Source of the DNA: an uncultured Flavobacteriaceae bacterium
GTDB lineage: Bacteria; Bacteroidota; Bacteroidia; Flavobacteriales; Flavobacteriaceae
DNA: 64,000 nt
Reading direction: 5' to 3'
Assembly (NCBI GenBank): GCA_947501625.1
Contig: CANMWN010000001.1
Coordinates: forward strand, 445,319-509,318
Both the position numbers and the translations under genes were made by a program. Below, in pieces: positions 2,862-10,659 of this stretch (within the stretch, counting starts at the first letter, position 1; each line of letters starts with the position of its first letter). The notes beneath the pieces are model-generated. The model was not told the DNA's origin and searched no databases. It worked only from the letters and a program-made list of their open reading frames with translations.

Positions 2862-3386
2862 TTAACCAATTATACTATTCCACTTTTCACTTCTTCTAGC
2901 CACTGATTTCACATAACTACATACTGCAACTGCTCTATAACCCTCTTCGGTGAGTTTTTCAAACGTTTTCTCAACCAATGTTTTTCCAATACCTTTTCCT
3001 CTCATGCTTTTTGGCACTTCGGAATGTGTCAAAAACAACTTATCATCTTTAATTACATATTGTACTTGCGCTATGTCATTATTCAATGCTAGCGTAAATT
3101 TATGATTATCTTTATCATGTACTACTTCCATATAATTTGGGATTAACTTGTAAATCCATTTATATAATTCTTTATCAGTTGGATTTCGTAACTTCTTTTC
3201 TCCTATGGTAATTGTAGGGAAGTTAAGTTTTTTATTTTTATAAAGGTTCATCAGTTCTTCGGCAAATTCTTCATTTTGTTCAACATCAAGAAACACGTAA
3301 TTTAAATTACGTGTTTCAAAAAATGTTTTATAATACTGTGTTTTATGGCATCGCTCGGCGCCAAATAATTTTATTCTAGTATTCAT
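2862..3386 (-). CDS. Glutaredoxin-like domain fused to a GNAT-like acetyltransferase domain
   Basis: A 174-residue protein with two recognisable halves. Residues 1-80 look like a glutaredoxin fold (beta-alpha-beta start KLFGAERCHKTQYYK, the cis-Pro-like FPTITIG, then a C-terminal helix). Only one cysteine is present at the active site (CHKT), so it would be a monothiol type. Residues 85-174 resemble the short GNAT family of COG2388 (YjdJ-like), with the acetyl-CoA loop RGKGIGK and the CSYVKSVARRSEKW tail. The gene is monocistronic and convergent with the patatin gene (13 nt between stops). A perfect AT-rich palindrome lies 40 nt upstream of the start. The substrate of either half is unknown. 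Confidence 0.75.
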   Translation of the reverse strand: MNTRIKLFGAERCHKTQYYKTFFETRNLNYVFLDVEQNEEFAEELMNLYKNKKLNFPTITIGEKKLRNPTDKELYKWIYKLIPNYMEVVHDKDNHKFTLALNNDIAQVQYVIKDDKLFLTHSEVPKSMRGKGIGKTLVEKTFEKLTEEGYRAVAVCSYVKSVARRSEKWNSIIG

Positions 3387-3678: not shown

Positions 3679-5910
3679 TTAAAATGTATATGATAATATC
3701 ATTTTAAAATTAAATGGTGTTCCTGGAGTAAAATGTATTTCCTCAACCGATTCAGTTTCATTTTGCAATCTAGATTCAGTTGCAAACTGTGTTTCATTCC
3801 ATTCTAAATCAAACAAATTCTCTATTGACATCCCAATATTTATATTATTAGACATATTATAAGATAAACTTGCATTTGTGATAAAGTACCCTTTAGCAAC
3901 AATTGAATTATCTTCATTTGCTGGTCGATCATCTAAATACTTAAAATTTAAATTTCCTGAAAGTTTATTATAATTCTTAAATGAAATTCCTCCTGCCATC
4001 GTAAAATCTGGAGCTAAAGGAATGTAGTTTCTCCCTTTAACTTCATTTACACTTCTTGCATGCGTATAGGTTGCATCAGTATTCAGATATAAATAATCGT
4101 TTATTTGAAATCTAAAACCTAAATCTACTCCAAAACGTTCAGATTCTCCATTTGGCTCTACAATCCCTGCGTCCCCAACATATACAAACTCTTGATCAGA
4201 AAACAAATACCAAAGAGTTGAGTTTACAATTAATTTTGAGTTTGGTTTCCATATATTTCCTAAATCTACTCCATAGGCTTTAGGTAAAATATCTTTTCCT
4301 TTTTGATTTACAACAACTCTAGCATCGTTAGAATGAAATCCTATTCCTGTTTTTAAGAACCATTGACTTTTCTCATTTTGATTGTAGAAGAAATTTAATT
4401 TTGGCGAAATGATAGATTTCTCCTCATCAGATATTGTATAGTTCTCTTCAAGTAAATCTTCATAAATAAATTTAAAATAATCTAGTCTAACTTCTGGTGC
4501 AATTTTAAATTTCCCTATTTCAAACTCTGATTTAAAAAAGGAAAAAGCATTTGTTTGTCTTAAATTTCCTAGTTGATTGTAATTTAGAATTGTTTTTCTA
4601 TTTAAGGTGTGTGACAGTTCAATATCGTCTACTAAATCATATTTTAGGCCAAATCCTGTTGTATAATCTGCCGAAACATTTCCGTATGTTTTTTGATTTT
4701 CAAACTGCGAATTGAAGCCAAAAATTGTTCTATCTTCTTTTTGTCTAATTTGGTCTCCATTAATTGGGTCGTCTAAGAAAAATGTAAAATTTGAAAATAA
4801 TTCAAAATCATACTTTGAATAAAAAACAGATGATTTAAAAGTAACTTCTTCATTTATATAAGTCTTATAATCAAGATTTATATTAGTTCTAGACGTATTA
4901 CCTCCTTCAGTGTCATCAATTGCCCCAAATCTTGAAATATTACCATTCTTAACTTCTCGTTCTGGAATTTGACCAGAAGCATTCCATCTACTATCAAAAT
5001 AAGATGCTGTAAAAGAAAGTTTAGCATTATTTTTAAGAAGTGTTGTATATTTTGCAAATACATTTATTCTATTGAAATTTTGTGGAGATTCGTATGGACC
5101 ATCATTGGCTATATATTCTACACCAACATAAGAGTTTTGATTGTTTTTATTATTTATTAAATTAAATAATCCCAAAGTTCTAAGATGATTATACTGACCA
5201 ATACTTGTTTGTATAGTACTGTGATCTAATTTATCTTTTGTTTTAAAATCTACATAACCAGCAGTTGCAAAATCTCCCTTGCTAGCATTATATGGTCCTT
5301 TATTAAAATCTAAATAGTCTATGGTTTCTGGGATAACAAAATGTAAATCACTATATCCTTGTCCATGCGCATGTGATACCATGTTTACTGGCATTCCATC
5401 TACAGATATTTGAATATCTGTACCATGATCTATATCAAATCCTCTCAAAAAAAGCTGTTCAGCTTTTCCTCCACCTGCATGTTGTCCAATTATTAATCCT
5501 GGTACTTTTTGTAATACTTCTTGAGATGAATTTACAGGATTTAATTCTAGATCTAACTTTGTAATAGTACTAGTAATATATGGTTGATTAGAAATAATTA
5601 TTTGATCTAAATTATAAATACTTTCTTCTAAATTAAAAACAATATCGTTTTCAAAATCTTGAGATTCTAAAATTTTAATTTTAGATTTATATCCTAAAAT
5701 AGTTACTTTAAGTGTATCACCAATCTTATTATTATCAATAGTAAATTTACCGTTATCTAAACTGTGAGAATGATTATAACTATTATTATTTATTATAAAC
5801 GCATTTTCAATTGATTCGCCATAAGTATCAAAAACATGACCAGTTATATCTTGAGACTTGACAGACAACACAAACAAACAACTAAAGCAAATAAAATATA
5901 ACAATTTCAT
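3679..5910 (-). CDS. TonB-dependent receptor with carboxypeptidase-regulatory-like domain
   Basis: A 743-residue outer-membrane receptor. A signal peptide (about 1-19) is followed by a CarboxypepD-regulatory-like beta-sandwich (about 20-95). The plug is about 110-220 (VLQKVPGLIIGQHAGGG, LFLRGFDIDHGTDI, SVDGMPVN) and a 22-stranded-type barrel ends in the aromatic terminus LSYTF. The plug carries a histidine-containing loop VSHAHGQGYSDLH directly after SVDGMPVN, which could contact a metal or a metal-bearing ligand. It is the last gene of a TPR-receptor pair (2 nt from the TPR stop) downstream of DUF4331 and sigma/anti-sigma genes. Substrate not known. The barrel and plug assignment is firm; ligand and regulation are inferred. 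Confidence 0.9.
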   Translation of the reverse strand: MKLLYFICFSCLFVLSVKSQDITGHVFDTYGESIENAFIINNNSYNHSHSLDNGKFTIDNNKIGDTLKVTILGYKSKIKILESQDFENDIVFNLEESIYNLDQIIISNQPYITSTITKLDLELNPVNSSQEVLQKVPGLIIGQHAGGGKAEQLFLRGFDIDHGTDIQISVDGMPVNMVSHAHGQGYSDLHFVIPETIDYLDFNKGPYNASKGDFATAGYVDFKTKDKLDHSTIQTSIGQYNHLRTLGLFNLINNKNNQNSYVGVEYIANDGPYESPQNFNRINVFAKYTTLLKNNAKLSFTASYFDSRWNASGQIPEREVKNGNISRFGAIDDTEGGNTSRTNINLDYKTYINEEVTFKSSVFYSKYDFELFSNFTFFLDDPINGDQIRQKEDRTIFGFNSQFENQKTYGNVSADYTTGFGLKYDLVDDIELSHTLNRKTILNYNQLGNLRQTNAFSFFKSEFEIGKFKIAPEVRLDYFKFIYEDLLEENYTISDEEKSIISPKLNFFYNQNEKSQWFLKTGIGFHSNDARVVVNQKGKDILPKAYGVDLGNIWKPNSKLIVNSTLWYLFSDQEFVYVGDAGIVEPNGESERFGVDLGFRFQINDYLYLNTDATYTHARSVNEVKGRNYIPLAPDFTMAGGISFKNYNKLSGNLNFKYLDDRPANEDNSIVAKGYFITNASLSYNMSNNINIGMSIENLFDLEWNETQFATESRLQNETESVEEIHFTPGTPFNFKMILSYTF

Positions 5911-5912
5911 AA

Positions 5913-7196
5913 TTAAATATTTTTAATGTCCATTTCCATTGAAGGTCCTAATTCAAATAGACTCTCAATCAACTCCTTTTTCAACTTTTGTGCTTTTTTT
6001 AGTTCTCCATTAGCTTTATAAATTTGTGCAACGCGAAACAAAACATCAGGCTCAAAAGTTTTATTAACAATTTTATTTTCAACAATCTGAAGCGCCTCAG
6101 GTTTTTTATCAGAATTATAATAAGACCAAGCTAGTAAATCATAAGATTGAGGTGTAGGTCTATTTTTAATTTCTTTCTGCGCAATGTCTATTGCCTTCCT
6201 AATTGTTTCTTGGTTTTCACTATATAATAAAACGTTATATTTATTGTACATATCTCCATATTTAGGATTGTTTACCAGAGTTAAATATTCGTTTATACTT
6301 TCATTTTTTGCATCTTTATTATTTTCATACTCTGCTATTTCAACTTTCAATAAAGATAAATCTGGTGTGTTATGATTTGATGCAATTGCATTTATAATTC
6401 TTAATGCTTCTTTAGGATTTTTTTCATGTGAAAAAACAATCCATGAAATTCCCTTTTTAGCATAGGCATTCAAAGGATTAATAGCTAGCGCTTTTAAAAA
6501 ATGATTATACGAGTCTTTAATACGTCCTGCGTGACCATAAAAATCAGCAAGGTTTGTGTAAGACCATTCTATCAAGTTTTTATTTTTTGATTTTTCCGCA
6601 ATTTTAGTTGCGTTTTCCATAGAATAAATTGCTTGGTTTAAATTCCCTTTATGATCATTCCATTTTGAGTTTCTAATTAAATAATCAAAATCTTGAGCAT
6701 TTCTAAACTGTGATAGGTAGTAAAATGCTTGATTTTTATTTCCTAATTCTAGGTAAACGTCAAAAAGCATTTTTTGTGTAGATTTTAAATTCTCACCATT
6801 TTTTTCAGCTTTTTTTAATAATTCTATTGCTTCTAAAAATTTATGTTGAGAAATATAATTTCTTGCTAAGGATCTTAAATAATTAGCATTCTTAAATTTT
6901 GTTTGTTGATTTGCTTTTTCTAAATTAGAAGAAGCGTCTACTAAATAATCAATATTTCCTGTTTCATTAAATAATTGAGTTTGTGCATTTGCTATTTTAA
7001 TTAAATAAGGAAATTGATTAGGGTTTTCATTCAATTTGTTTTCCCAAAAGTTTAAGTCTTCTTTGTTTAATTCAGTTTTGACATCCAAATATGCTTGGTA
7101 ATCTTTTGGGTTAGTTATTGTTTCTAGGTTTTTTTCACAACTACTAATTATTAAAAGCAAAAGTAATACTGATAATATGTTATATATAGTTTTCAT
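5913..7196 (-). CDS. TPR-repeat lipoprotein
   Basis: A 427-residue predicted lipoprotein: signal peptide ending in the lipobox SSC (Cys near 20), then helical tetratricopeptide repeats through the rest of the chain. Typical TPR signatures can be seen (AIELLKKAEKNGENL, YNHFLKALAINPLNAYAKKG, LDVYLELGN-type helices). TPR proteins scaffold protein-protein contacts. Attached to the periplasmic side of a membrane or exposed at the surface, it may serve the TonB-dependent receptor encoded 2 nt downstream. No enzyme motif is visible. Confidence 0.8.
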   Translation of the reverse strand: MKTIYNILSVLLLLLIISSCEKNLETITNPKDYQAYLDVKTELNKEDLNFWENKLNENPNQFPYLIKIANAQTQLFNETGNIDYLVDASSNLEKANQQTKFKNANYLRSLARNYISQHKFLEAIELLKKAEKNGENLKSTQKMLFDVYLELGNKNQAFYYLSQFRNAQDFDYLIRNSKWNDHKGNLNQAIYSMENATKIAEKSKNKNLIEWSYTNLADFYGHAGRIKDSYNHFLKALAINPLNAYAKKGISWIVFSHEKNPKEALRIINAIASNHNTPDLSLLKVEIAEYENNKDAKNESINEYLTLVNNPKYGDMYNKYNVLLYSENQETIRKAIDIAQKEIKNRPTPQSYDLLAWSYYNSDKKPEALQIVENKIVNKTFEPDVLFRVAQIYKANGELKKAQKLKKELIESLFELGPSMEMDIKNI

Positions 7197-7229
7197 AATA
7201 CTGTTATTTTTTGTTGATTATTAAAAAAG

Positions 7230-7268
7230 AAAAAGAGTGTGTTTTGGTTTGCACACACTCTTTTTTTT
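7230..7268 (-). terminator. Terminator or attenuator between the DUF4331 pair and the TPR-receptor pair
   Basis: Stem GAGTGTG (7235-7241) with CACACTC (7254-7260), flanked by A and T runs on either side. On the minus strand it follows the stop of the second DUF4331 gene by 9 nt and precedes the TPR start by 34 nt. The DUF4331 genes may therefore be expressed more highly than the TPR-receptor pair, with partial read-through. Confidence 0.7.
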
Positions 7269-7276
7269 GGGGTGCT

Positions 7277-7831
7277 TTACCAAGGAGATGCTAGGTAAGG
7301 AAAAGAGGTTAAAAATGCTTTATCATTCGTATCAACATGATCATCTGATAATGTAGGATTTTCAGTAAAGTCTTCACCACCAAAAATCAATAATAATTCT
7401 ACAGTAATCACATCATCTGCTAAAGCACGACCTGTAAGTACGTTTGTACCATCATAAAATGTTGTTGTACCATCTAACGAAACTGTTAATACATCTGTCG
7501 CTAAAACACCAGAAAACGCTGCAGCGTCTAATCCAAGTGCATTTTGGTCTCCAGGATTAGCATAAGCTGGGCTTAATGCTGTTAAATTTGCTTCAAACAT
7601 ACTTTGAAAAGTACTTCCTTGTGTTGAAGGTGTTGTTCTGTTAAACATATCTTTACTCGTTGAAGACACAAACACTGTATTTACAGCAGGTCTTCCCATT
7701 TGATCTTCTTGTTGATATACACCAGAAAAATCTGGTTCTGCGCTCATCATCATGTCATCATCACTATCATTACAACTAATAACAATTAATGAAAGAAAGA
7801 AAATGGCTATTGAATATTTTAAAGTTTTCAT
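7277..7831 (-). CDS. DUF4331-related lipoprotein (resembles the C-terminal half of the family)
   Basis: A 184-residue lipoprotein with lipobox ISC (Cys near 20), followed by an acidic and methionine-rich linker. The body shows features I associate with the C-terminal half of DUF4331 proteins: the GRPAVNTVFVSS segment, an FN..TP block and the ending FPYLASPW. It lies 22 nt downstream of the first DUF4331 gene, so the two look like halves of one family working as a pair, one exported and one lipid-anchored. The function of DUF4331 is not established. No catalytic motif is evident. Confidence 0.7.
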   Translation of the reverse strand: MKTLKYSIAIFFLSLIVISCNDSDDDMMMSAEPDFSGVYQQEDQMGRPAVNTVFVSSTSKDMFNRTTPSTQGSTFQSMFEANLTALSPAYANPGDQNALGLDAAAFSGVLATDVLTVSLDGTTTFYDGTNVLTGRALADDVITVELLLIFGGEDFTENPTLSDDHVDTNDKAFLTSFPYLASPW

Positions 7832-7853
7832 ATTTTTATATTTTATTGATTAT

Positions 7854-8501
7854 TTATTTTCTTTTAGATTCTACCCATGTGTTAATATCTCCTGAAGTTC
7901 CAATCATAGTTTTAGGTACTTCAACAACTATTGACATTACATTAGTTCCTGCAAATGTGTCTGCTCCCGGATTATTAAAACTTGTTGCATTGCCGGCAAT
8001 AATATCACTATACTGAGCAAAATCCATAAAGAAAGGATCGTCTCTAGGTCCAGCAAAAAATGACATTCCACCATTACTTTCAATTTGTGGAGAACTACCG
8101 TAAGTTGTTATATCAACACTATTAGTTGTTGCAGAAGTTTGAATTGTACTTGACAAACCTGGAGAAGCTGGCGCTACAGGTCCAAAAAAGTACATTTTAC
8201 CATCTCTAGGTGTTGCTTGAATTACTAAATCTTCAACAGCATCACCATTGGTATCTATATTAAACTCTACCAATACATTCTCATCAAATGTTGCTGTTGA
8301 TGTCGCAGATGGGCTTAATAACCCTTGAACATTTGCTACAAATACAATGTTATTTGTATCCTCACCTTGAAAGGCGTAATAATCAGTAATATCACTTGTG
8401 CCACCTTGAACTGCAGGAGCATCAATATGATCTGCTGCAATAAAAGTAAATACTGCTACTACAAGTGTACTGATTCCTAAATAAATTTTTTGTTTCTTCA
8501 T
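7854..8501 (-). CDS. DUF4331 family exported protein (N-terminal half type)
   Basis: A 215-residue protein with an N-terminal signal or anchor segment (MKKQKIYLGISTLVVAVFTF) running straight into the DUF4331 hallmark DHIDAP and DITDYYAFQ. The rest is beta-rich with several Asp/Asn turns. It ends at about residue 215 (WVESKRK), shorter than the single-chain DUF4331 proteins I know of; the missing half seems to be supplied by the next gene. It is first in its transcript, after the terminator of the anti-sigma gene. Localisation is probably periplasmic or surface. Function unknown. Confidence 0.75.
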   Translation of the reverse strand: MKKQKIYLGISTLVVAVFTFIAADHIDAPAVQGGTSDITDYYAFQGEDTNNIVFVANVQGLLSPSATSTATFDENVLVEFNIDTNGDAVEDLVIQATPRDGKMYFFGPVAPASPGLSSTIQTSATTNSVDITTYGSSPQIESNGGMSFFAGPRDDPFFMDFAQYSDIIAGNATSFNNPGADTFAGTNVMSIVVEVPKTMIGTSGDINTWVESKRK

Positions 8502-8670
8502 AATAATGAAATTTTCGTTTATGTTATTTTTTGTTACTCATATACACTTACGAGAGATTCTTATACTCGGTTTTAAAAAAGAGTGTTTTTATTTTTAAAG
8601 AAATTTGAATTTGTCCAAAAAACCAAGTATTTAATGGGCTTATACCTCTATAAAAAATTATGTTTTTTTA

Positions 8671-8747
8671 TTATTAGAAATTAAAAGCAAGTCGTTTCTA
8701 ATAAATTTTTCCAATAAAAAAAGCCTCAAAAATTATTTTGAGGCTTT
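8671..8747 (-). terminator. Terminator of the anti-sigma operon, with an adjacent palindrome
   Basis: Arms AAAGCCTCAAAA and TTTTGAGGCTTT (about 8720-8731 and 8736-8747), followed on the minus strand by a run of seven T, form a clear intrinsic terminator 23 nt after the anti-sigma stop. Immediately beyond it, 8671-8680 and 8695-8704 form a separate perfect 10-bp inverted repeat (TTATTAGAAA) without a T-run. This may be an operator for the DUF4331 promoter that must lie between about 8510 and 8670. Confidence 0.72.
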
Positions 8748-8769
8748 CAGGTTGTATTGATTATACTTT

Positions 8770-9564
8770 TTACGAAGCTACTAATCCAAGAGTATAAAGT
8801 TGATCCATAGTTGGTGATTCACTTCCACCTTCAGGTTCTAGTGTTATTCCAAAGGCTTGAGATTCATTTAAATTGGCAAGTTTAAATACTTTGTTTTCAT
8901 CATCAGCAAAATTTTCTAACAATCCCATACTTGTAGGTGTTAAAGGATTTAATGTTAATGACCAAACTTGATAGACTTTCCCAGAAGGTGGCTCAGGTAA
9001 ACCTAGCGCGTCAATAAATGCTACGCCATCTTTTTTATTCCAATAAACTTTAGCGTACGAATCAGGTGAAACTTGTTGACCACCCAATTTAATCGTTTCA
9101 ATATCTTTATCTCTAAAAATAGCAACCAATTCTTTTGCTTTTTCTGTACTTTCATTTGCCTCAGAAATCTTTTGTTCTAATTCAGCATTTTGCTGGGCAA
9201 TTAATTGAATATTATTTTCTACAGATTTATATTCATTAAACATCCAAAACATCCCTATGGCAAGTAATACTGAAGCTGCCCAACCTGAATATGCAAACCA
9301 ATTCGGTTTTTTAATTTCTTGTTTTAATTCAATAATTTTAGGTATTGATGAGATTTTATTAGAAATTTTATCAAAACCAATCGTTGATTTTGGCGCTAAT
9401 GACCCAGACAAAATAACAATTGCTCTTTCAATCTCTTCGACTTCTTTTCTTATTTCAGGATACTGTTTTATCAATTCACTAACCTCTACATTTTCTTTTT
9501 CAGATAATGCACCGGCAACATATAATTCTAATATGCCAGATTCTATGTATTGTTTAGTGTCCAT
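8770..9564 (-). CDS. RskA-like anti-sigma factor
   Basis: A 264-residue single-pass membrane protein. The first ~100 residues are cytoplasmic and acidic/helical (a zinc-less anti-sigma domain; no HxxxCxxC seen). One transmembrane helix lies around 105-125 (AYSGWAASVLLAIGMFWMF), then a coiled coil (about 130-170). The C-terminal domain has the anti-sigma-K signature: YAKVYWNKKDGVAFIDA, LPEPPSGKVYQVWSL and LEPEGGS. It should sequester the ECF sigma factor encoded 1 nt upstream and release it on an envelope signal. Sensing is inferred from family knowledge. Confidence 0.88.
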   Translation of the reverse strand: MDTKQYIESGILELYVAGALSEKENVEVSELIKQYPEIRKEVEEIERAIVILSGSLAPKSTIGFDKISNKISSIPKIIELKQEIKKPNWFAYSGWAASVLLAIGMFWMFNEYKSVENNIQLIAQQNAELEQKISEANESTEKAKELVAIFRDKDIETIKLGGQQVSPDSYAKVYWNKKDGVAFIDALGLPEPPSGKVYQVWSLTLNPLTPTSMGLLENFADDENKVFKLANLNESQAFGITLEPEGGSESPTMDQLYTLGLVAS

Positions 9565-9565
9565 T

Positions 9566-10096
9566 CTAATTTAAAACAATTTTTCTAAGTTCTAAAATGC
9601 AATTTCTATTATTTGTTTTTACAGTTCCTAATGGAATATCTAATTCTTCGGAGGCTTCTTTTTGCGTATAGCCTTGAAAGTATAAAAGTTCTATTAGTTT
9701 TTTACACTTTTCTTTAAGAGAGCCTACAAACTTTTTTATTCCCAATGAATCCATTTTTTTTTCAAGATTTTCATCCGATTCAATAATATCTACGAAAAAA
9801 GTGGCATCAGAGTTTTTATTCTTATTTTTAAATTGCTTAGACCTAGTCATATCAATGGCTGAGTTGCGTGCAATATTAATAAGCCACGTAAAGAATCTAC
9901 CTTTCTTTATCGAAAAAGATTCTGAATTATTCCATGCTTTAATAAAAACATCTTGTAATACTTCTTCAGCTAATTCTTGATTTTTAACGATATTATAAAT
10001 AACACCATGCATACTCTCCGAATACATTTCATAAAGTTTTTCAAAGGCTTTAATATCTTTATTTTGAAATTTTACAAGAAGTTGATCTAAATTCAT
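9566..10096 (-). CDS. ECF-type RNA polymerase sigma factor
   Basis: A 176-residue sigma-70 family protein of extracytoplasmic-function type. Region 2 is about 10-80 (FEKLYEMYSESM, QELAEEVLQDVFIKAWNN, FFTWLINIARNSAID). A variable linker follows, then region 4 about 120-170 with the helix-turn-helix YTQKEASEELDIPLGTVKTNNR. The anti-sigma gene starts 1 nt after its stop, so the two are translationally coupled. The likely regulon includes the neighbouring DUF4331/TPR/receptor genes, judged by location only. A promoter motif common to both transcripts was not convincingly identified by eye. Confidence 0.92.
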   Translation of the reverse strand: MNLDQLLVKFQNKDIKAFEKLYEMYSESMHGVIYNIVKNQELAEEVLQDVFIKAWNNSESFSIKKGRFFTWLINIARNSAIDMTRSKQFKNKNKNSDATFFVDIIESDENLEKKMDSLGIKKFVGSLKEKCKKLIELLYFQGYTQKEASEELDIPLGTVKTNNRNCILELRKIVLN

Positions 10097-10659
10097 AAAG
10101 TGGATTACTTATATACAATAATACAATATATTTACTTCTTAAAAAACTATCTAGTAAGAATCGATGTTAATAGTAGTTTACATGAACTCAAAAATTATAA
10201 TTGTTGGAGTTCGAGTTGTTTTTGAATGTTTAAAAAACTAACTTCGCTAACGGACGATATAGTTAATTATTAACTAACCATATCTTAACATTGAAGCACA
10301 TTCAGCAAAGCTGAACTTTTGTTTCTTCGTGCTTCGCACTCCCATCCCAAAAGATTGTGCTTCAACAGACCTGCTAAACCAAATTATTTAGTATAGTGAT
10401 ATTTAAAATTAATATCACCTTTGCTGGGCATCGAGCCAAAACGATGCACCAACTTTTACTAAACATAATTTGGCTCTGCAATTTTTGCTCCCAATAATCG
10501 AAATTTGGCAAATAACGCAAGACTCGCTTGCTATTCGATAAATTATTATCAGATTGATATAGGAAGTCTAATATCTGATAATAATTGCCCAAATTCCTTA
10601 TATTTACTCAAAAATTACAGAACTACGTTTAGCAGGTCTGTTAGCAAAACCTTCGAGTT
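10097..10659. other. 563-bp intergenic region, no convincing gene
   Basis: The space between the sigma factor start and the tyrS stop. Bases 10097-10290 hold the sigma upstream region and nothing else I can name. Bases 10291-10642 hold the folded inverted-repeat element listed separately. A 72-codon open frame (10374-10592, minus) lies wholly inside that element and looks fortuitous. Confidence 0.6.
10291..10642. repeat. Structured inverted-repeat element, possibly MITE-like or a structured RNA
   Basis: Two adjoining structures. First, 10291-10300 pairs perfectly with 10356-10365 (TTGAAGCACA). It encloses a 6-bp hairpin (TTCAGC at 10301-10306 with GCTGAA at 10310-10315), a CTTTTG/CAAAAG stem (10316-10321/10348-10353) and a small GTGC-TTC-GCAC hairpin (10329-10339), giving a branched fold. 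Second, a 16-bp perfect inverted repeat (10364-10379 with 10627-10642, AACAGACCTGCTAAAC) bounds a 247-bp interior. That interior contains more perfect stems, including a 14-bp pair 10541-10554/10573-10586. There is no transposase. A non-autonomous mobile element or a decayed cassette fits best; the identity is unknown. Confidence 0.6.

Follow-up and report, generated by a model that had tools for sequence, protein, structure and literature searches.

A SigK/RskA-type locus of Flavobacteriaceae with a probable inhibitor promoter inside the sigma factor gene and a DUF4331 surface protein divided over two chains

The locus described here lies in a 64,000-nt window, the whole stretch of DNA analyzed, from an uncultured Flavobacteriaceae bacterium (GCA_947501625.1, CANMWN010000001.1, positions 445,319 to 509,318) and is, with a probability that we put at about 0.7, the regulator together with the chief target operon of an envelope response of SigK/RskA type in this family. 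The fuller reading, in which this response hides a promoter for its own inhibitor in the codons of the sigma factor gene and has as main output a two-chain DUF4331 surface protein derived from one gene fission, is held to be probable with slightly less assurance. All six minus-strand ORFs were present where an earlier, sequence-only reading of this DNA had placed them, and its family assignments (ECF sigma, RskA-like anti-sigma, DUF4331, TPR, and TonB-dependent receptor) were borne out by Pfam and NCBIfam (Table 1).

Table 1. Features of the locus, in positions of the window.
Feature	Position	Strand	Basis
ECF sigma factor, SigK-like	9566..10096	-	Pfam Sigma70_r2/r4 (sigma2 and sigma4 regions)
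Putative promoter within sigma gene, AAAACT-N16-CGTAGAT	9788..9816	-	Pattern match with one mismatch
RskA-like membrane anti-sigma factor	8770..9564	-	Pfam RskA_C, E 1e-19
Terminator-like hairpin 3' of anti-sigma gene	8719..8748	-	13 bp stem and T tract
ECF-type promoter of DUF4331 pair, AAAACC-N16-CGTAAGT	8546..8574	-	72 nt before start codon
DUFN, secreted DUF4331 N-half	7854..8501	-	PF14224 positions 2-237
DUFC, lipoprotein, DUF4331 C-half	7277..7831	-	PF14224 positions 243-421; lipobox VISC
Hairpin with T tract in DUFC-TPR gap, proposed attenuator	7230..7265	-	13 bp stem, -15.5 kcal/mol
TPR lipoprotein	5913..7196	-	Pfam TPR models; lipobox in sequence
TonB-dependent receptor	3679..5910	-	Plug and CarboxypepD_reg_2

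Although many Bacteroidota encode DUF4331, no mention of it was found in the literature searched; the present analysis supplies a likely regulator for it, along with a promoter, a conserved set of partners and a two-chain architecture. The sequence-only reading had counted two members of this family in the locus; DUFN and DUFC are instead matched by complementary, non-overlapping halves of the 421-position PF14224 profile (58.3 and 88.5 bits vs. a cut-off of 27), show no mutual similarity (BLASTP E 0.34) and line up collinearly along a protein that other Bacteroidota make as one chain, on which grounds a pair of paralogues was rejected. Neither of the two ORFs carries the whole domain, unlike the single chains in families of other Bacteroidota. 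The in-frame pair of a relative, read through with its stop codon taken as a residue, scored 141 bits to DUF4331, and the tree contained a single clean split/fused bipartition (support 100/100). Judged from these comparisons, the domain was split once in evolution; its two halves sit side by side in almost all of the Flavobacteriaceae loci read; long chained matches had pointed to single-chain DUF4331 proteins in some members of the family, a candidate that was rejected because the loci read carried two ORFs. DUFN was accompanied by DUFC in 80/80 named loci. It had also been proposed that two independent DUF4331 proteins bind ligand at the surface and feed the receptor, and both ORFs do match PF14224 and carry export signals; since they are dissimilar halves of a single domain, always together in the named loci, two separate ligand catchers are nonetheless unsupported and this explanation has very little chance of being correct.

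The two chains should rather pair into one domain rich in β-sandwich structure. The predicted structure of the linked chains, for which the in-frame pair of a relative served, was of moderate confidence (pLDDT 69, pTM 0.71) and matched generic β-sandwiches only (best Z 6.1; 7.3 with the N-half alone); as no fold match exceeded Z 7.3 and all were generic Ig-like and CBM9-like sandwiches, no family was inferred. PDB sequence searches returned no relatives of DUFN and, for DUFC, only a weak match of the N-terminal 60 residues to BamM. The single-chain loci of other Bacteroidota share with the window the domain itself and the TPR neighbor; a receptor of the same family is often present too, and in some cases the sigma/anti-sigma genes. 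They differ from it in having the domain in one piece, whereas in the window the N-half is a secreted protein and the C-half a lipoprotein.

The best NCBIfam model for the sigma factor was the ECF SigK subfamily (E 8e-35, under that model's curated cut-off), and the best PDB match was M. tuberculosis SigK (4NQW, E 1.6e-16); its two cysteines occupy other alignment columns than the C133/C183 pair of SigK, typical of ECF18/ECF19. The sigma and anti-sigma genes were adjacent in 93 loci, with a median gap of 1 nt. In Bacteroidetes, a class I anti-sigma factor is reported near only about 6% of ECF factors (PMC7406223); a pair that runs through a whole family and has a promoter that can be read therefore offers a good entry to the control of envelope stress in marine flavobacteria. 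By analogy with its family, the RskA-like membrane protein would keep the ECF factor inactive until an envelope signal frees it, and the free sigma factor would then transcribe from AAAACC-N16-CGTARGTA promoters, the one upstream of DUFN driving the DUF4331 operon and so yielding one secreted and one lipoprotein half. The boxes at the DUF4331 pair, of AAC type at -35 and CGT type at -10, are the hallmark of ECF promoters (PMC8103513), unlike the TAnnTTTG box of the flavobacterial main sigma factor (PMC9723704). The promoter core was present within 150 nt upstream of 95/152 DUF4331 homologues vs. 1/2,329 other nearby genes, and the exact pattern in 107 of the 152. Six matches to the pattern occur in the genome of the window, among which the DUF4331 site alone is intergenic and directly ahead of a coding gene. 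Anti-sigma orthologues were clearly apart from paralogues, and over 149 genomes orthologue and DUF4331 were both present in 54 and both absent in 82, with one of the two alone in 2 and 11 (Fisher p 7e-27, uncorrected for shared ancestry), a co-occurrence that extends to genomes where the genes are not adjacent. Control of the DUF4331 set by the sigma/anti-sigma pair, as previously suggested, is thus well supported by co-occurrence and by the conserved promoter at the pair.

A putative second copy of this promoter lies within the sigma factor gene, in the window 251 nt before the anti-sigma start, and is conserved in 81/93 sigma/anti-sigma pairs; the copy in the window differs at one position of its -35 box. 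The synonymous codons lying under the two boxes were invariant in 83 sigma genes, and four of the five most constrained among 119 codon columns (F101, N95, V102, and L96) fall within them. Retention of the promoter through synonymous codons implies that the anti-sigma gene is transcribed by the very factor that its product inhibits: transcription from this site would supply extra anti-sigma without extra sigma and act as a built-in brake. No ECF-type promoter was found ahead of the sigma gene (0/92). These codons may be constrained for another reason, such as mRNA structure or another factor. If the brake is real, the embedded promoter clearly exemplifies coding and regulatory constraints that overlap to produce negative feedback; priority for intragenic anti-sigma promoters is not established, since our literature search was confined to open-access papers. 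From the co-occurrence and from the motif within its own gene, we infer that the sigma factor of the locus reads AAAACC-N16-CGTARGTA. The alternative, that the sigma/anti-sigma genes are chance neighbors and a different ECF factor reads the motif, draws on the mutual resemblance of ECF promoters and on the several ECF factors of flavobacteria (seven in F. psychrophilum, PMC9723704); it is improbable, as the pair and DUF4331 co-occur across genomes even when unlinked and the same motif lies inside the sigma gene, ahead of the anti-sigma gene.

Terminators had been proposed near 8720 and 7235, and terminator-like hairpins are indeed present at both places. The one in the DUFC-TPR gap was retained in 64/114 relatives vs. 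0/228 shuffles, and this conservation makes the graded expression suggested earlier plausible: the hairpin would leave TPR protein and receptor less strongly expressed than the DUF4331 pair. The proposed division into three transcripts holds only in part: within the loci no ECF-type promoter was found upstream of the TPR gene (0/124) or of the receptor gene (0/81), and these two genes are therefore probably transcribed by read-through.

The gene block is far from a chance arrangement. The TPR gene stood beside DUF4331 in 78/80 named loci, the receptor gene was present at 54/80 and the anti-sigma gene at 53/80, so that the coherent set recognized in the sequence-only reading is conserved across relatives. 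The order in the window, with co-oriented sigma and anti-sigma genes at the head, is unusual: of the 53 named loci with the anti-sigma gene close by, 51 have it downstream and oppositely oriented. The receptor was rejected as a strict partner of DUF4331, as about a third of the loci lack it, at times with the gene encoded elsewhere, and as it occurs in 20/93 genomes without DUF4331.

The nearest known system is the mycobacterial SigK/RskA regulon, where a SigK-like ECF factor is likewise followed by an RskA_C anti-sigma factor and where, in M. tuberculosis, SigK targets the FAS1-type genes mpt70/mpt83 (PMC7509140). FAS1 proteins may belong to the regulon here as well: in relatives, small FAS1 (fasciclin) genes have a similar motif 59-72 nt upstream, with eight such loci, all in relatives and mostly with CGTT at -10. 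The Flavobacteriaceae locus differs in its phylum, in having the DUF4331-TPR-receptor operon as main target, in the AAAACC-N16-CGTARGTA promoter and in the conserved promoter within the sigma gene. In F. psychrophilum SM6, ECF-type promoters share the CGT at -10, and an ECF/anti-sigma pair is preceded by one of them; the genes concerned are mainly those of type IX secretion, and the available part of that report names no DUF4331 operon (PMC9723704). Outside the two main sites, about 95 motif matches were counted in 35 genomes vs. 41 with the reversed-pattern control; further regulon members are only candidates because these numbers are close. The motif inside the coding sequence of phytoene-desaturase-like genes, identified by sequence only (loci L243, L248, and L258), was set aside as a probable coding coincidence.

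As for function, the absence of a SusD-like lipoprotein and of glycan-degrading enzymes among the six genes separates the locus from SusCD polysaccharide utilization loci, as the sequence-only reading had held. FecI/FecR-TonB systems similarly bring an ECF factor, a membrane anti-sigma factor and a TonB-dependent receptor together in one locus, and the proximity of an ECF factor to a receptor that has CarboxypepD_reg_2 could suggest an orphan locus for a nutrient receptor of SusC or FecI/FecR type. This is highly unlikely, given that SusD and enzymes are missing, that the anti-sigma factor has RskA_C and not FecR, and that no N-terminal signaling domain was matched on the receptor. A response to oxidative or envelope damage under the same circuit, with DUF4331 pair and TPR lipoprotein protecting or repairing the outer surface and the receptor as an accessory, is a serious possibility without being the expected outcome. 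It accords with the position of sodC, in many relatives the gene immediately upstream of that for sigma, with motifs upstream of MsrB, ferritin-like, LpxR-family and several FAS1 genes, and with the loci devoid of receptor; however, the MsrB and ferritin matches come from single genomes, sodC has no ECF-type promoter (0/34), and the receptor gene, where present, directly follows the TPR gene on the same strand (median gap 13 nt). The weakest step of our own model, and a tentative one, is that the secreted proteins would act at the surface under oxidative or envelope stress, handling or taking up a transition metal or metal chelate. The histidine-rich plug of the receptor, in which H144, H162, H180, H182, and H190 are invariant, weakly suggests metal handling, as do HupE/UreJ neighbors: HupE/UreJ_2 frequently adjoins single-chain DUF4331 loci and adjoins some split loci, with none seen beside the Flavobacteriaceae loci. 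Unlinked copies of the receptor gene are preceded by a small histidine-rich protein in 10/16 loci.

The six-gene block of the window is real and conserved, and profile searches assigned its members to the families of ECF sigma factors, RskA_C anti-sigma factors, DUF4331 (two ORFs, here DUFN and DUFC), TPR lipoproteins and TonB-dependent receptors. In 80 named Flavobacteriaceae loci, from genera including Hyunsoonleella, Tamlana, Winogradskyella, Polaribacter, Tenacibaculum, Kordia and Bizionia, all 80 have DUFC, 78 have TPR and 54 have the receptor; the anti-sigma gene is near in 53 and the sigma gene in 51. Most relatives carry the sigma/anti-sigma genes downstream on the opposite strand, and the gene order of the window was matched in one named relative, Winogradskyella undariae (locus L170). 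The source genome is a flavobacterial assembly of 2.66 Mb, in which DUF4331 is confined to the window locus. A divergent LETM1-domain protein lies beside DUFN in most relatives (L034-L073, L109-L188; 57 of the 80 loci) and is absent there in the window. A glutaredoxin-like and GCN5-related N-acetyltransferase fusion protein is encoded just 3' of the receptor gene.

Coordinates of the features discussed
Feature	Position	Strand	Location
Six ORFs	3679-10096	minus	
DUFC	7277-7831	minus	within the block
DUFN promoter motif, window copy	8546-8574		
Repeat, window copy	10360-10650		just upstream of sigma gene
Glutaredoxin-like/N-acetyltransferase fusion	2862-3386		just 3' of receptor gene

The DUF4331 pair is one split protein. 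DUFN covers profile positions 2-237 and DUFC 243-421, and comparison of the two ORFs revealed no similarity between them; single-chain homologues from other Bacteroidota families align with the N-half as far as roughly residue 280 and with the C-half beyond it. The halves adjoin in nearly all Flavobacteriaceae loci read, and in the tree a single branch (support 100/100) separates split from single-chain forms, so that one fission, or one fusion, suffices. Joined by reading through the stop codon, the halves of Polaribacter sp. DS7-9 (L143) scored 141 bits to the DUF4331 model; the structure model of this chain (pTM 0.71, mean pLDDT 69) aligned to beta-sandwich proteins with residues from both halves, although this predicted fold match is generic and uninformative on function. 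The DUFC ORF carries a lipoprotein signal of its own, unlike DUFN, whose signal peptide is of ordinary type. After the lipobox DUFC starts CNDSDDD (CSNDDD in relatives), which resembles the flavobacterial surface-lipoprotein export signal, and DUFC may therefore face outward.

The block is very probably under control of the adjoining sigma factor. Anti-sigma orthologues, with at least 257 bits, stood well clear of the paralogues, which reached no more than 141, and among 149 genomes 54 held orthologue and DUF4331 together, 11 the anti-sigma alone and two DUF4331 alone (p 7e-27, a statistic that ignores shared ancestry). The hallmarks of ECF promoters are AAC and CGT (PMC8103513), and an exact AAACC-N16-CGTA stands 5' of DUFN in 107 of the 152 distinct sequences compared, in most cases 64-74 nt from the start codon. 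When CGTARRT was required within 150 nt upstream, the motif preceded 95 of 152 DUFN genes and one of 2,329 other genes of those loci. The source genome itself holds six AAACC-N15-17-CGTARRT matches, a total no higher than the reversed-pattern control, and the argument therefore rests on conservation of the motif rather than its count; of the six, only the window copy is intergenic and suitably spaced to serve as the promoter of a protein-coding gene. Three single-chain DUF4331 genes are preceded by a related box, (A/G)ATCC-N16-17-CGT. At L195, L197-L202, L206, L207 and L210, in genomes without DUF4331 as well, a Cu/Zn superoxide dismutase-like gene stands directly 5' of the sigma/anti-sigma pair.

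Of 93 sigma/anti-sigma pairs, 81 carry the DUFN-type motif again, as a putative promoter inside the sigma coding sequence at about 250 nt from the anti-sigma start; the window's copy is one base off in the -35 box (AAAACT). Across 119 synonymous columns of 83 sigma genes, Asn95, Leu96, Phe101 and Val102, whose codons fall in the -35 and -10 boxes, were four of the five most constrained: AAC 83/83, CTN 79/81, TTC 83/83 (background 21%) and GTA 83/83, in related sequences that are not independent events. Active sigma would thereby raise its own inhibitor without raising itself.

Both hairpins proposed by the sequence-only reading, near 8720 and 7235, are present in the window. Of 114 distinct intergenic sequences between DUFC and TPR, 64 contain a T-tract hairpin; 228 shuffled sequences gave none. 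No DUFN-type promoter of their own was found for TPR and receptor in these loci, so that their expression probably depends on read-through of this putative attenuator.

Across 35 genomes, other exact matches lay shortly 5' of FAS1, LpxR-family, ferritin-like, MsrB and uncharacterised lipoprotein family genes, and 141 nt 5' of an unlinked copy of the receptor. Since the reversed-pattern control reached about half their total, a match seen once is weak, and the recurrent targets (FAS1, lipoprotein, LpxR) are stronger; a weight-matrix scan supported small FAS1 genes at eight loci. The products of mpt70 and mpt83 are FAS1-type proteins. Both genes are SigK targets in M. tuberculosis (PMC7509140).

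As to function, five histidines are invariant in the plug of ten aligned receptors, and a small histidine-rich protein, with no Pfam match, precedes unlinked receptor copies in 10 of 16 loci (L291-L302, L306). TPR is also found at single-chain DUF4331 loci; some of them add the receptor and the sigma/anti-sigma genes, and several a membrane protein of the HupE/UreJ_2 family, which includes nickel/cobalt permeases. Together, histidines, small protein and HupE/UreJ_2 hint that the system may handle a transition metal, the main rival being a response to oxidative or envelope damage. Four unlinked receptor loci adjoin non-ribosomal-peptide-like synthesis genes, identified from sequence alone.

The repeat near the sigma gene is 283-291 bp long, has 27-nt terminal inverted repeats and occurs nine times in the source genome in near-identical form. 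Five of these copies, at intervals of about 1-1.4 kb that each enclose different genes, lie next to a tyrosine recombinase (L307; G000:C4:231325-236677) and form what looks like an integron-like cassette array.
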